Source: Geothrix oryzisoli
Lineage (GTDB): Bacteria > Acidobacteriota > Holophagae > Holophagales > Holophagaceae
DNA length: 64,000 nucleotides
Assembly (NCBI RefSeq): GCF_022808865.1
Contig: NZ_JAKZLB010000004.1
Span: 62,001-126,000 of the forward strand
Direction of reading: 5' to 3'
In this document: positions 6,283-10,885 of the stretch, in pieces
Layout of the letters: every line of letters begins with the position of its first letter
Numbering within the stretch: position 1 is the first letter of the stretch
Notes under the pieces: generated by a model
Databases searched by the model: none
Told to the model about the DNA's origin: nothing
What the model saw: the letters and a program-made list of their open reading frames with translations, nothing else
Position numbers and translations under genes: made by a program

Positions 6283-6378
6283 GCCGGGTGATGCGCGACC
6301 TGAAGGTCATGTTTTTCAAGCGCTTGTCGGATTGTCACGCAATCCATGACAAAAAATGACGTAACTCGTGACATTTCT

Positions 6379-6394
6379 TGTGATGTCTATCACT
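6379..6394. promoter_or_regulatory. CRP/FNR-type palindrome TGTGA-N6-TCACT
   Basis: The bases TGTGATGTCTATCACT match the E. coli CRP core TGTGA-N6-TCACA at nine of ten half-site positions. They lie in an unusually AT-rich stretch (6306-6420) that also has several TGAC/GTGAC half-sites, e.g. GTCAC at 6334 and GTGAC at 6368. The site ends 55 bases before the ATG of the 66-aa protein. A Crp/Fnr-family regulator is the natural candidate, but none is encoded in this window. Confidence 0.45.
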
Positions 6395-6449
6395 AGCATT
6401 GGTGATCATCAAAGACGATGATGATGTCCAGCAAGCAAGTGGAGCGGCC

Positions 6450-6650
6450 ATGCACATGGATACCAGCGTTCGTCAGCACAACCCGGCTTTCTGGACCACC
6501 GCCGAGCGGCTGCACGAAGTCTTCAACCAGCTTGAGCGCCAGATGAGCGCCTCTCCGCGCGGCCTCGCCGTCCTCCGGCAGGTCCAGGCGCTCGAGGCCG
6601 AGCTCGAAGCCGAGGTCATGCACCGCAGCCACCGGACCTTCGCGGCCTGA
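6450..6650 (+). CDS. Small (66 aa) helical protein of unknown function
   Basis: A reading frame with a GGAG box five bases before the ATG at 6450 gives 66 residues, mostly helix. Leucine/glutamate-rich heptads such as 'LRQVQALEAELEAEVMH' suggest a coiled coil. The frame extends upstream to a TTG at 6399, but that start has no ribosome-binding site. I do not recognise a family. The gene stands alone between ruvC and a convergent gene, has an AT-rich upstream region with a CRP-like palindrome, and is followed by a strong hairpin. These features support it being a real, regulated gene. Confidence 0.55.
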   Translation: MHMDTSVRQHNPAFWTTAERLHEVFNQLERQMSASPRGLAVLRQVQALEAELEAEVMHRSHRTFAA

Positions 6651-6663
6651 GGCTGGCTCCTGC

Positions 6664-6696
6664 GCAGAACGGCCCGGCGATGCCGGGCCGTTCTGC
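6664..6696. terminator. 15-bp perfect hairpin between convergent genes
   Basis: GCAGAACGGCCCGGC, a 3-base loop (GAT) and the exact reverse complement lie between the 66-aa gene and the convergent M56 gene. There is no T-run on either side, so it would be an atypical terminator, probably acting in both directions. Confidence 0.6.
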
Positions 6697-6708
6697 GTAC
6701 GGAGCAGC

Positions 6709-8454
6709 TCAGGGTCTGGGAGGTTCCATCCGGAAGGCGAAGGTCTTCCAGGGGGCATCCAGCAGCACCCGGGTCTCGCCACGCCAGCCGGTGCCCGGAT
6801 CCTCGCCGCGGATCCGCAGGCTCGCGCCAGCCTTGGAGCCATCCAGCAGGACCTTGGGCCGGAACTCCGTCCAGGGCCCCACCGTGTAGGTCCCATCCTG
6901 GCGCTTCTCCCCGATCTGGACGGTCCCCAACACCGCGACGCCCTCCGCGGGCAGCAGGTCCAGCTTCAGGTTGCCGCGACCGCTCGCGCGGAGCTGGAGC
7001 GTGATCTGGCCGCCACTGCCCCGCCGGAGCACACCCTGCACCTCTCCCTCCGCCAGCGGCGCCTCCGGCTGCACGGCCTTCGCCGCCAGCACGCCCAGCA
7101 CCATCTCCCGGTAGCGAGTCGCCTCCTCGGTGATGCGTCCCTCATCCAGGGCCTTCTCGCCGCAGTTGTAGGCCGCCACGGCCTTCTGCACGTCCCCCTG
7201 GTAGCGGTCCAGCAGGAAGCGCAGGTATCTCGCCCCCGCCGCCATCACCTGGGTGGGATCATCCAGGTCCTTCGCGCCATAGGTCCGGGCCGTCCCAGGC
7301 ATGACCTGGAGCAGACCCGAGGCGCCTCTGGAGCTCCTGGCCGCAGGGTTGAAGCCACTTTCCACCCAGGCCATGCTGCGGAGCAGCTGGGGGTCCAGGC
7401 CCTCCTGGGCCGCCAGGGCATCCAGCTTCGCCACCACCTCGGCGGGCGCGCCGATGGGAGGCCGTTCCGGGGTTCCCGCCCGCAGGGCCAGGACCAGACA
7501 CGGGGCCAGCAGGAGGGTCAGCAGCCCCCAGGAGGATCCACGGGCAGGCTTTGGGGCAAGCAGGCGTTCGATGCGGGTGAGCAAGTGTCCTCCTCGGGCC
7601 GCGAGGGCCGGGAACAGGGAGTGGGGGAGGGTGCGCTGGAGATCGTCCAGCGCGTTGAGGGCCAGGGCCAGCCGCCGCGGATCACCGAGGCTCCGGGCCG
7701 CCAGGCCGTCGGCGAGTTCTTCGCGCTCGGCCCGGATCCGGGCCGAGAGCCACCAGATGGCGGGGTGGAAGAAGAGCAGAGTTTCGGCCAGACCCTGGAT
7801 GAGGTTGGACAGAGGGTCCAGCCGCTGCACATGGGCCAGCTCGTGGGCCAGGAGGGCCTCCAGGTAGCTGGGCGGCAGGCTGGTGAGCAGGGCCGCCGGG
7901 ACCAGCACCACGGGCTTCCAGAGTCCGAGGACCATGGGCGTGTCGCCCTGCCCCGCCAGGAGCAGACGGATCGGCCTCAAGATCCCCATGCGCCGGGCGA
8001 GCGCCTCCAGCCGCTCCTGCCATTCGCCGGACGCAGGAACCGCCCGCCGTCGCCACCGCAGGCTGAGGCCATACCCTCCGGCGAGGCGCAGGGCCATGAG
8101 GCCGGCCCCCAGGGCCCAGAGGGCCACCAGGAGCGGCAGCCGGGGCTGCAGGGAAGCCTCCCATCGCGCCAGCAGGGGCCGGGCAGGAGGGTTCATCCGC
8201 GGCAGGCTGGTGGAAGCCGCCAAATCCATGTCTGCGCTTCCCGCCTGGCCGTACTCGGCCGGTGCGGGGCGATGGAAGCGCCAGCCCGTGGCGGCCGGCA
8301 GCACCAGGCAGAGGAGCAGGACCAGGCCGTTCAGCCGATGCCGGGCCTGGCCGTGGAGGGCCACTCCGCCCAGGGCTGCCAGCGCGACGAGCAGGCAGCC
8401 CTGCCAGAGCGCGTGGACGAGGGTCCAGCCGAGAATCTGGACGAGGGTTTCCAT
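6709..8454 (-). CDS. BlaR1-like M56 membrane metallopeptidase fused to a lytic transglycosylase (SLT) domain
   Basis: Residues 1-60 and about 105-135 hold N-terminal membrane segments. An M56 peptidase domain follows with the zinc motif HELAH (204-208), a downstream 'REELADG' third-ligand region (about 246) and a further membrane segment near 307-325. After this comes a goose-lysozyme-like SLT domain (about 335-460): 'MAWVESGFNPAARSSRGASGLLQVMPGTA' with catalytic glutamate near 364, and 'AVAAYNCGE'. A beta-rich tail of about 115 residues ends the 581-aa protein. BlaR1/MecR1 proteins cleave BlaI-type repressors on sensing cell-wall stress, and SLT enzymes cut peptidoglycan glycans. The blaI-like gene directly upstream ends in TGATG overlap with this start (ATG 8454; a GTG at 8457 is possible). 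The sensor here would thus be a murein-binding or murein-cutting domain rather than a penicillin-binding one; that last point is inference. Confidence 0.85.
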   Translation of the reverse strand: METLVQILGWTLVHALWQGCLLVALAALGGVALHGQARHRLNGLVLLLCLVLPAATGWRFHRPAPAEYGQAGSADMDLAASTSLPRMNPPARPLLARWEASLQPRLPLLVALWALGAGLMALRLAGGYGLSLRWRRRAVPASGEWQERLEALARRMGILRPIRLLLAGQGDTPMVLGLWKPVVLVPAALLTSLPPSYLEALLAHELAHVQRLDPLSNLIQGLAETLLFFHPAIWWLSARIRAEREELADGLAARSLGDPRRLALALNALDDLQRTLPHSLFPALAARGGHLLTRIERLLAPKPARGSSWGLLTLLLAPCLVLALRAGTPERPPIGAPAEVVAKLDALAAQEGLDPQLLRSMAWVESGFNPAARSSRGASGLLQVMPGTARTYGAKDLDDPTQVMAAGARYLRFLLDRYQGDVQKAVAAYNCGEKALDEGRITEEATRYREMVLGVLAAKAVQPEAPLAEGEVQGVLRRGSGGQITLQLRASGRGNLKLDLLPAEGVAVLGTVQIGEKRQDGTYTVGPWTEFRPKVLLDGSKAGASLRIRGEDPGTGWRGETRVLLDAPWKTFAFRMEPPRP

Positions 8455-8825
8455 CACTCCTCCCCGCTCAGCAGCTCGCGGATGCGGGCCTTTTCCTCGG
8501 GGCTGACCTCCCCGGACCGGAGGGCCGCGAGCACCAGCGCTCCGGCAGAGCCCCCGAAGAGGCGCTCGGTCAGATCTGCCACCAGGCCCCCTTCCATGGC
8601 CGAGCGGCTGTGGGCCGGGGCATAGACGTGGCTGCGCTGCCGCTCATCGCGGGTCACCAGCCCTTTGTCCAGCATCACCTGGAGCATCCGCAGCACCCCC
8701 GTATAGGCGTAGACCTCCCGGCGGTTCAGGCAGGCATGGACCTCTTTCACGGTGGAGGGTCCCAGGTCCCAGAGGACCCGCAGGAACTTGAGCTCCACGT
8801 CCGTCGGCTTGAGGGGGCGCTTCAT
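8454..8825 (-). CDS. BlaI/MecI-family transcriptional repressor
   Basis: This 123-aa protein has the winged-helix core of BlaI/MecI ('KPTDVELKFLRVLWDLGPSTVKEVHACL...YTGVLRMLQVMLDKGLV') and a C-terminal dimerisation helix region containing 'RLFGGSAGALVLAAL'. Family members bind TACA/TGTA dyads and are inactivated by cleavage through their M56 partner, here encoded immediately downstream with overlapping stop and start. The frame is open further upstream, but the ATG at 8825 gives the family N-terminus. A matching dyad sits 8 bases before this start, so autoregulation is likely. No target gene other than the operon itself is visible. Confidence 0.88.
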   Translation of the reverse strand: MKRPLKPTDVELKFLRVLWDLGPSTVKEVHACLNRREVYAYTGVLRMLQVMLDKGLVTRDERQRSHVYAPAHSRSAMEGGLVADLTERLFGGSAGALVLAALRSGEVSPEEKARIRELLSGEE

Positions 8826-8832
8826 GGGAATC

Positions 8833-8864
8833 CTACACAAGATGATGTAGACCATTTTGTGTAG
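8833..8864. promoter_or_regulatory. Inverted repeat upstream of blaI-like gene, probable operator
   Basis: CTACACAA (8833-8840) and TTGTGTAG (8857-8864) form an 8-bp dyad. A third TGTA at 8846-8849 makes TACA-N8-TGTA with the first arm. TACA/TGTA half-sites are typical of BlaI/MecI operators. It lies 8 bases upstream of the repressor start, where a bound repressor would block transcription. Confidence 0.7.
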
Positions 8865-8919
8865 ATTCACCCCGTTGTCAAGGGCCGCCCAGAGACAAAA
8901 CGCCGTCAGGCCAGGAAAA

Positions 8920-8948
8920 GTACAAGCCCGGCTCTGCCGGGCTTGTAC
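8920..8948 (-). terminator. 13-bp hairpin followed by TTTT, second terminator of malic enzyme
   Basis: Read on the minus strand, GTACAAGCCCGGC, loop AGA and the exact complement are followed by CTTTTCC, the form of a Rho-independent terminator. It sits behind the first terminator at 8999-9018. Confidence 0.7.
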
Positions 8949-8998
8949 GCGGGGGCCCCGGGGGTGTTCGCGCAGCGAGGAACCCCCGGACAGCAAAA

Positions 8999-9018
8999 GG
9001 GCACCCCGAAGGGTGCCC
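8999..9018 (-). terminator. UUCG-type hairpin with T-run after malic enzyme
   Basis: On the minus strand GGGCACCC-TTCG-GGGTGCCC is followed by TTTTGCTG. The stable UUCG tetraloop and the T-run make this a classic Rho-independent terminator for the malic enzyme transcript. Confidence 0.8.
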
Positions 9019-9154
9019 AAGTGTCTCGGCCGCTTGGATCATGGGCCGGAAGGGGCTGGCGTGAACGGTCGCCCCGTGGGAGGAAAGAGGGACTCTTCCC
9101 GCCCCCAGGCTAGGCCTTGGCCCAGCCCCCTCAAGGGGGAAAATCGGTCCTGGG

Positions 9155-10885
9155 TCAATCCTCCTGGTGCAGGGTGCCGGGCCGGTACGAGGTGTAGTGG
9201 GGCTCCCACTGGGCCTTGGCGACGATGGCCTCCAACTGCCCGTCATCCAGCAGCCGGCCGAGCCCGGCATCCCGGGCTTCCTTGCCGACGGCCACAGCCA
9301 CGGCGGCGGATACCCCCCGGATGTCCTTCATCTCGGGCAGCAGCAGGCCCGTGGCCTCCTGCTCAGGCGTGACAAAGGCGCTGATGGCCTTGCTGGCCGC
9401 CAGGAACATCCGGTCGGTGATCCGGGTGGCCTTGCAGACCAGAGCGCCGAGGCCCACGCCGGGGAAGATGTACATGTTGTTGCACTGGGAGGCCTGGAGC
9501 GTGCGGCCCTTCCAGTCCATGGGCGCGAAGGGGCTGCCGGTGGCCACCAGGCCCTTGCCGTCCGTGGCCTTCCAGACCGCCTCGGGCGAGCACTCGCACT
9601 TGTGGGTGGGGTTCGAGAGGGCCAGCACGATGGGGCGCTCGGAGTGCTTGGCGGTCTCCGCCAGGATGGCCTCGTTGAAGAGGTCCGGCTGGGCGGTGAC
9701 GCCGATGAGCACCGTGGGGTGGGCGTTGCGGACCACATCCGGGAGGCCGATGCGGGAGGGGTCGTCCAGCTTCCAGCCCTCCACGACGGACCGGCACTGG
9801 GCCAGCGGCAGCTGCGGGCCCTCCAGCAGCGGATCGCCTTCGATGAGCAGGCCCTGCATGTCCACGGCGAAGATGCGCTGGCGGGCCTCTTCGTCCGAGA
9901 GGCCTTCCGCCTTCAGGGCGGCGCGGATGTTCATGGCGATGCCGGTGCCGGCCTGGCCCAGGCCCACGATGACGTAGCGCTCGTCCTGGAAGCGGCTCTT
10001 CTTGATGCGCATGGCCGTCATGAGGGCCGCCAGGGCCGTGGACCCCGTGCCCTGGATGTCGTCGTTGAAGGAGAGGATCCGCTCGCGGTAGCGGTCGAGG
10101 TTCTTGAAGGCCGTGTGCTTGGCGAAGTCCTCCCACTGGAGCAGCGCGCCGGGGAAGTTGCGCTTCACGCCAAGCACGAATTTCTCGACGAGCTCTTCGT
10201 ATTCCGCGCCGCGCAGGCGGGGCTTGCGGATGCCCAGGTAGAGGGGATCCTCCAGCAGCCGGGGATTGTTCGTGCCCACATCCAGCGTGATGGGCAGGCA
10301 GACGCCGGGGTGGACGCCGCCGGCGGCCACGTAGAGGCTCACCTTGCCCACGGGGATGCCCATGCCGTCCGAGCCGAGGTCGCCCAGACCCAGGATGCGC
10401 TCGCCGTCGGTCACGACGACGAGGTTCACCTGGGGCTGGGAGAGGCCATGGAAGATCTGGTCGATGTTCCCGATGTTCTCCGGCGTGATGTAGATGCCCC
10501 GGTAGCGCCGCTGGATGTGGCTCAGCTGGAGGCAGGCCTGGCCGACGGTGGGCGTGTAGACGATGGGCACCATCTCGTCCAGGTGGTCCACCAGGAGCCG
10601 GTAGAAGAGGACTTCATTCCGATCCAGGAGGCCAGACAGGTAGATGTACTTCTCCAGGTCGTCGGACTTGCGCAGGAAGGCTTCATAGGTGCGGTCCAGC
10701 TGGGAATCCAGGCTGGAGATGCCGGGGCGCAGCATCCCGTCCAGGCCCAGGCTCAGGCGCTCCTCCTTGCTGAAGGCGGAGGCCTTGTTCAGGTGCGGGT
10801 TGTTCAGCAGGGCCCGCCCACGGACGTAGACGTCGTAGTATTCCTCGCCCGTCAGCGGGTCGATCTTCAAGGTGAAGGTCTTCAT
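9155..10885 (-). CDS. NAD-dependent malic enzyme
   Basis: Malic enzyme oxidatively decarboxylates malate to pyruvate and CO2, making NAD(P)H. The 576-aa length fits the large (SfcA/MaeA and eukaryotic) type. The malate/metal region includes 'EMVPIVYTPTVGQACLQLS', 'VVVTDGERILGLGDLGSDGMGIPVGK' and 'SFNDDIQGTGSTALAAL', and a Rossmann region holds 'YVIVGLGQAGTGIAMNI'. 'ALSNPTHKCECSPEAVW' is the conserved C-terminal part. The usual NAD-preferring enzyme has this form, but cofactor choice cannot be proved from sequence. It is a single gene with its own tandem terminators. A TACACT element (minus strand near 10954) may be its -10 box. Confidence 0.92.
   Translation of the reverse strand: MKTFTLKIDPLTGEEYYDVYVRGRALLNNPHLNKASAFSKEERLSLGLDGMLRPGISSLDSQLDRTYEAFLRKSDDLEKYIYLSGLLDRNEVLFYRLLVDHLDEMVPIVYTPTVGQACLQLSHIQRRYRGIYITPENIGNIDQIFHGLSQPQVNLVVVTDGERILGLGDLGSDGMGIPVGKVSLYVAAGGVHPGVCLPITLDVGTNNPRLLEDPLYLGIRKPRLRGAEYEELVEKFVLGVKRNFPGALLQWEDFAKHTAFKNLDRYRERILSFNDDIQGTGSTALAALMTAMRIKKSRFQDERYVIVGLGQAGTGIAMNIRAALKAEGLSDEEARQRIFAVDMQGLLIEGDPLLEGPQLPLAQCRSVVEGWKLDDPSRIGLPDVVRNAHPTVLIGVTAQPDLFNEAILAETAKHSERPIVLALSNPTHKCECSPEAVWKATDGKGLVATGSPFAPMDWKGRTLQASQCNNMYIFPGVGLGALVCKATRITDRMFLAASKAISAFVTPEQEATGLLLPEMKDIRGVSAAVAVAVGKEARDAGLGRLLDDGQLEAIVAKAQWEPHYTSYRPGTLHQED

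Follow-up and report, generated by a model that had tools for sequence, protein, structure and literature searches.

The gene at 6709-8454 on the minus strand of the window, which means the whole analyzed stretch of 64,000 nucleotides, encodes a BlaR1-like M56 membrane protease fused to a lytic transglycosylase (SLT) domain and a C-terminal beta-sandwich, and it is paired with an adjacent gene for a BlaI-like repressor. We see an even chance that this pair is an autoregulated wall-sensing BlaI/M56 switch, in which the SLT domain would act as the periplasmic input domain. BlaR1 and MecR1 are the antibiotic-sensor proteases of penicillin-resistant bacteria and carry a penicillin-binding sensor domain, and BlaR1 is thus a case of an enzyme, a penicillin-binding protein, that has become a receptor. 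If our reading is true, the fusion would be an independent enzyme-to-receptor case with a murein-cutting enzyme, and it would offer a direct route from the peptidoglycan state to gene expression via proteolysis. In this way the fusion may enable a cell to monitor the condition of its wall; wall biology in general has received little study in this phylum.

The open reading frame spans 6709-8457 on the minus strand when it is read from a GTG start at 8457. The ATG at 8454 is the likelier start, hence the gene bounds 6709-8454 of the original prediction are correct. Residues are numbered here with the GTG at 8457 as residue 1, i.e. one higher than when counting from the ATG. The ATG overlaps by one base with the TGA stop codon (8456-8454) of the upstream blaI-like gene in the sequence TGATG. 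A strong hairpin directly behind the fusion stop codon lacks a T-run and is therefore not a standard intrinsic terminator; together with terminator-like stems upstream of the blaI promoter it makes blaI and the fusion gene look like an isolated two-gene operon, in which no beta-lactamase or penicillin-binding protein gene is present. The genes, the parts of the fusion protein and the hairpin are located as follows.

6709..8454, minus strand: M56-SLT-beta fusion gene, 581 amino acids from the ATG at 8454, stop codon at 6711-6709, full length in 20 genomes of the genus
7708..8457, minus strand: M56/BlaR1-like membrane protease region, residues 1-250, with TM1-TM3, HELAH and E246xxxD250 (from Pfam, invariant columns, the BlaR1 alignment and hydrophobic segments)
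8176..8277, minus strand: hypervariable loop in place of BlaR1 EL1, residues 61-94, predicted periplasmic, pLDDT below 50 at 63-93
7483..7539, minus strand: fourth transmembrane helix, residues 307-325, leading into the predicted periplasmic part (from the structure model and hydrophobic segments)
7063..7467, minus strand: SLT (GH23 lytic transglycosylase) domain, residues 331-465, with the catalytic Glu366 and Y430-N431
6712..7065, minus strand: C-terminal beta-sandwich, residues 465-582, of which about 470-550 form a swapped, hypervariable patch
8454..8825, minus strand: blaI-like repressor gene, 123 amino acids, with a Penicillinase_R match, adjoining the fusion gene in relatives
6640..6712, minus strand: strong hairpin right behind the fusion stop codon (z -7.5), the probable end of the two-gene operon

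The domain anatomy postulated earlier was recovered in all its parts. Peptidase_M56 (PF05569) matches residues 107-250 with an E-value of 5.9e-25 and 88.5 bits, well above the cut-off of 31, and the zinc motif of a BlaR1-type protease is present as HELAH at 205-209 together with E246xxxD250. The profile search on which the predicted SLT domain depended likewise found it far above the cut-off (PF01464, E 1.2e-23, residues 349-439, 83.3 bits versus 21.3). All 24 fused homologues share H205, E206, H209, E246 and D250 as well as the SLT glutamate E366; the claimed catalytic glutamate is in place, and the SLT active site appears to be complete. No transpeptidase or penicillin-binding domain was matched by Pfam in the fusion protein at E <= 1, and the NCBIfam model blaR1_generic reaches 40 bits against a cut-off of 400, with the M56 part alone. 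The neighboring repressor matches Penicillinase_R (PF03965) with an E-value of 6.1e-24 and 85 bits versus a cut-off of 22.6.

An AlphaFold2 model built from the 24 fused homologues has a mean pLDDT of 82, while its overall pTM reaches no more than 0.54, which makes the placement of the domains uncertain. In alignments of the AlphaFold model, residues 9-290 match the cryo-EM structure of S. aureus BlaR1 over 239 residues (Z 19.6, 3.1 A), and residues 331-465 match the catalytic domains of Slt and MltF with Z of about 16. The SLT domain follows on the last transmembrane helix and thus occupies the place of the sensor in BlaR1, as had been suggested earlier. BlaR1 has an N-out, C-out topology, with EL1 formed by residues 56-96 (PMC9834060), and by analogy the SLT domain should lie in the periplasm. 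The expected beta-rich tail is also borne out, because when modeled by itself it folds into a nine-stranded sandwich with a pLDDT of 90. The tail of the window protein matched no Pfam family, and a sequence search with it gave weak matches only, mostly to designed proteins. A named fold was rejected for the tail, as merely generic C2/Ig-like structures were matched with Z <= 8.5.

The fusion is widespread among relatives. Among the 47 sampled genomes of the genus, whose named members are Geothrix, 20 carry it in full length with 58-100% identity and one more contains a fragment. Such a number of full-length copies rules out a frameshift, an assembly chimera or a chance fusion. It also occurs in five further genera of the family Holophagaceae, and in the phylum sample three genomes that belong to other classes (G147, G299 and G376) encode M56-SLT proteins next to a BlaI. 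BlaI lies directly upstream at every fused locus with enough upstream sequence, which agrees with the BlaI-like neighbor originally proposed, and relatives with M56 and SLT as separate genes lacking a link to BlaI were looked for and not seen. In seven close pairs the SLT part shows a dN/dS of 0.12-0.21, i.e. strong purifying selection, and all domains have dN/dS values far below 1. A fusion that is degenerate or accidental and plays no part in signaling would fit the absence of both fusion and fragment from about half of the genus (26 of 47 genomes). However, six genera and other classes keep the catalytic residues, BlaI and the operator, which together with the low dN/dS makes this explanation highly improbable. 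In 398 sampled genomes of Pseudomonadota the fusion was not found at E <= 1e-80, a threshold at which divergent copies could be missed; Myxococcota and Bacteroidota lay outside the phylum-level sampling. A quick M56 tree with long branches needs six label changes, only two of which are forced by its starred branches, so that the fusion may have had one or several origins. In L036, two M56 genes occur in tandem, 6357-8459 with SLT and 8529-10265 without it; each is preceded by a BlaI coding stretch, and their promoter dyads differ.

The protein varies most in the loop at 61-94, with a mean pairwise identity of only 17-18% at residues 71-90. In addition, a patch of about 220 bp at window 6800-7050, which encodes approximately residues 470-550 in the first half of the beta-sandwich, is only about 50-60% identical in three comparisons (L010 versus L012; L009 and L008 versus L017; L014 versus L015), while the genes on both sides are mostly 85-99% identical. 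The patch looks as if recombination had replaced alleles at a diversifying domain. As tail and EL1-like loop vary most, either of them, rather than the SLT domain, might bind the signal, and the latter would merely dock the protein to murein. The low identity of the loop is what would be expected of a segment facing a changing partner, and the repeated replacement of the tail patch among close genes points in the same direction. However, a family member of 470 amino acids (L044) has no tail at all, no tail match was obtained in the three other-class fusions of the phylum sample, and the tail of the window protein belongs to no matched family and shows only generic Ig/C2-like folds. Moreover, loop and tail vary independently, with a dN of 0.015 for TM12 plus loop versus 0.46 for the tail in L010/L012. 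Signal reading by the beta-sandwich or the loop thus appears improbable. A coupled change of loop and tail was considered and was not seen in close pairs. In two genera of the family, about 100 extra residues lie between SLT and tail (L038:204-2243, L039:7515-9761, L040:1216-3321).

Upstream of blaI, 20 genomes of the genus share a TTGAC(A) element and a 32-bp block with two dyads. The dyads are of the type CTACACAAnnTTGTGTAG and occur as two overlapping copies across the -10 region that have four bases in common. In the window the promoter elements are found at these positions.

8876..8881, minus strand: -35 hexamer TTGACA, kept in 20 genomes
8854..8859, minus strand: -10-like hexamer CAAAAT, covered by operator dyad 1
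8847..8864, minus strand: predicted operator dyad 1, CTACACAAAATGGTCTAC
8833..8850, minus strand: predicted operator dyad 2, CTACATCATCTTGTGTAG, with four bases in common with dyad 1

The mean column conservation at 8833-8864 is 93% versus 58% upstream, and the dyads are predicted to act as BlaI operator. Their TACA-N8-TGTA half-sites are farther apart than those of TACANNTGTA, the operator reported for the BlaI/MecI repressor family (PMC7253601). In the same genome, two further M56 genes are each paired with a separate BlaI, one with TonB_C and one with a 798-aa open frame, and these paralogous promoters carry TACGAA...TTCGTA-type dyads instead. The recognition-helix residues also differ, being YTGVLRM in the BlaI of the fusion and YTTVLKL/YTTALKM (also given as YTTVLKM) in the paralogous BlaI proteins. 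The different dyads and recognition helices fit separate circuits for the fusion and the paralogous pairs.

Searching the own genome with TACACAAnnTTGTRTA and up to two mismatches returned the two operon dyads only, while weaker or different sites are possible. A longer pattern with three mismatches gave one further site, which is at chance level, because the reversed control gave more matches. A large regulon in the own genome was thus rejected, as no close dyads exist beyond the operon. Across the 47 genus genomes, sites with up to one mismatch were found at the blaI-fusion promoter, at the promoters of a CE4 polysaccharide deacetylase gene (Polysacc_deac_1, E 4.2e-18), and once as a stray in G037. 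The nearest PDB chains of the CE4 protein are peptidoglycan N-acetylglucosamine deacetylases, and it may act on murein. Close orthologues (72-100% identity) were found in six genomes of the genus, each of them bearing the fusion. The probability of this by chance is about 0.005 given 21 of 47 genomes, calculated by hand and uncorrected for relatedness. A single dyad lies upstream of the CE4 start in all six, accompanied by a TATACT-like -10 element in four. The sites in G008 and G017 came from an initial pattern, at a stage when the CE4 gene had yet to be recognized; the R-variant pattern was partly drawn up after CE4 sites had been seen. The predicted regulon, consisting of the own operon and of CE4 in six species, suggests that the output of the switch also points to the cell wall.

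In the proposed mechanism, for which we infer membrane topology, BlaI-dyad binding, ligand, signal transfer, BlaI cleavage and the direction of control, BlaI would bind the two overlapping dyads across the -10 region of its own promoter and keep the operon low. The fusion protein would be embedded in the inner membrane, its zinc-protease site facing the cytoplasm and its SLT domain and beta-sandwich extending into the periplasm; there the SLT domain would bind, and probably cleave, peptidoglycan glycan strands. Altered occupancy or turnover at the SLT site might then be signaled across the membrane to the protease, which would inactivate BlaI in the manner of BlaR1; the latter cleaves BlaI once a beta-lactam has bound its enzyme-derived sensor (PMC9834060). 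Derepression would yield more operon product and, in some species, also the periplasmic CE4 deacetylase, whose predicted substrate is the glycan cleaved by SLT enzymes. Placed where BlaR1 has its sensor, the SLT domain could in this manner report glycan availability, turnover or inhibition. A more specific version appears rather unlikely, namely that the SLT domain is an enzyme turned receptor for glycan turnover or bulgecin-like inhibitors, with BlaI cleavage driving a tiny wall-remodeling regulon and the swapped beta-sandwich tuning the system between species.

A serious alternative, although less probable than the sensor reading, is that the SLT domain is the effector, so that the operon would make an inducible membrane-tethered lytic transglycosylase, while the M56 core, or a muropeptide bound by BlaI, would sense a different cue. 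The response would then be more wall-cutting enzyme, to which some species add a tempering deacetylase. Most species lack a second target and would induce only the sensor itself, hence an effector role fits equally well in this regard; in the own genome, no output other than the fusion protein is predicted. The intact SLT site under strong purifying selection counts against a pure sensor, which need not cut. Moreover, a peptidoglycan dipeptide binds BlaI/MecI and can release the repressor from DNA (PMC3305447), and M56 homologues such as M. tuberculosis BlaR1 (PMC9834060) and the copper-responsive PetP (PMC7896320) can signal without a known sensor domain. However, the SLT domain sits in the sensor place of BlaR1, its pairing with M56 recurs in the three other-class genomes, and a regulatory protease is an odd tether in a genus in which a separate SLT protein, matching fusion residues 338-484, is already widespread. 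Input and effector roles of the SLT domain are not exclusive and can coexist.

Compared with known systems, the wall-sensing switch resembles BlaR1/MecR1-BlaI/MecI of Staphylococcus aureus and Bacillus licheniformis in its M56 core with four transmembrane helices, the HExxH..ExxxD motif and the shared fold (Z 19.6), as well as in the adjacent BlaI-type repressor, the promoter dyads and a C-terminal extracytoplasmic domain at the same place. It differs by the SLT domain and beta-sandwich instead of the penicillin-binding sensor, and by its predicted targets, the own operon and the CE4 deacetylase, without a beta-lactamase or penicillin-binding protein in the operon. The cyanobacterial PetRP system is likewise a BlaI/M56 pair (BlaI-like PetR, BlaR1-like PetP) that controls a small regulon and plays no part in beta-lactam responses; however, it responds to copper, regulates plastocyanin and cytochrome c6, and no SLT domain is named for it (PMC7896320). 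With Slt/MltF/MltE-type GH23 enzymes, which release 1,6-anhydro products from peptidoglycan, the fusion shares the SLT fold (Z 14-16), the catalytic glutamate and the Tyr-Asn motif, but those enzymes are free-standing or lipid/outer-membrane-anchored, whereas the SLT domain of the fusion is joined to a regulatory protease of the inner membrane. M56 has also been found joined to another wall hydrolase, the M23 endopeptidase, instead of SLT; these M23 peptidoglycan hydrolase-M56 fusions fall within a group of less than 1% of database matches, and no role was assigned to M56 (PMC9662197). In the open-licence literature, no paper was found that pairs peptidase M56 with an SLT domain, or Geothrix with BlaR1.

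The conserved dyads predicted as operator upstream of blaI and the putative CE4 link are new. The wall-sensing idea is testable owing to the predicted operator and to a regulon that is predicted to comprise one or two transcription units. Finally, at least three genomes (L141, L144, L145; fragments in L146, L149, L150 and L151) contain a second CE4 gene, which shares about 45% identity with the dyad-controlled one and is located immediately ahead of a paralogous blaI-M56 pair, in the same direction; it represents an independent link of BlaI/M56 pairs with CE4 enzymes.
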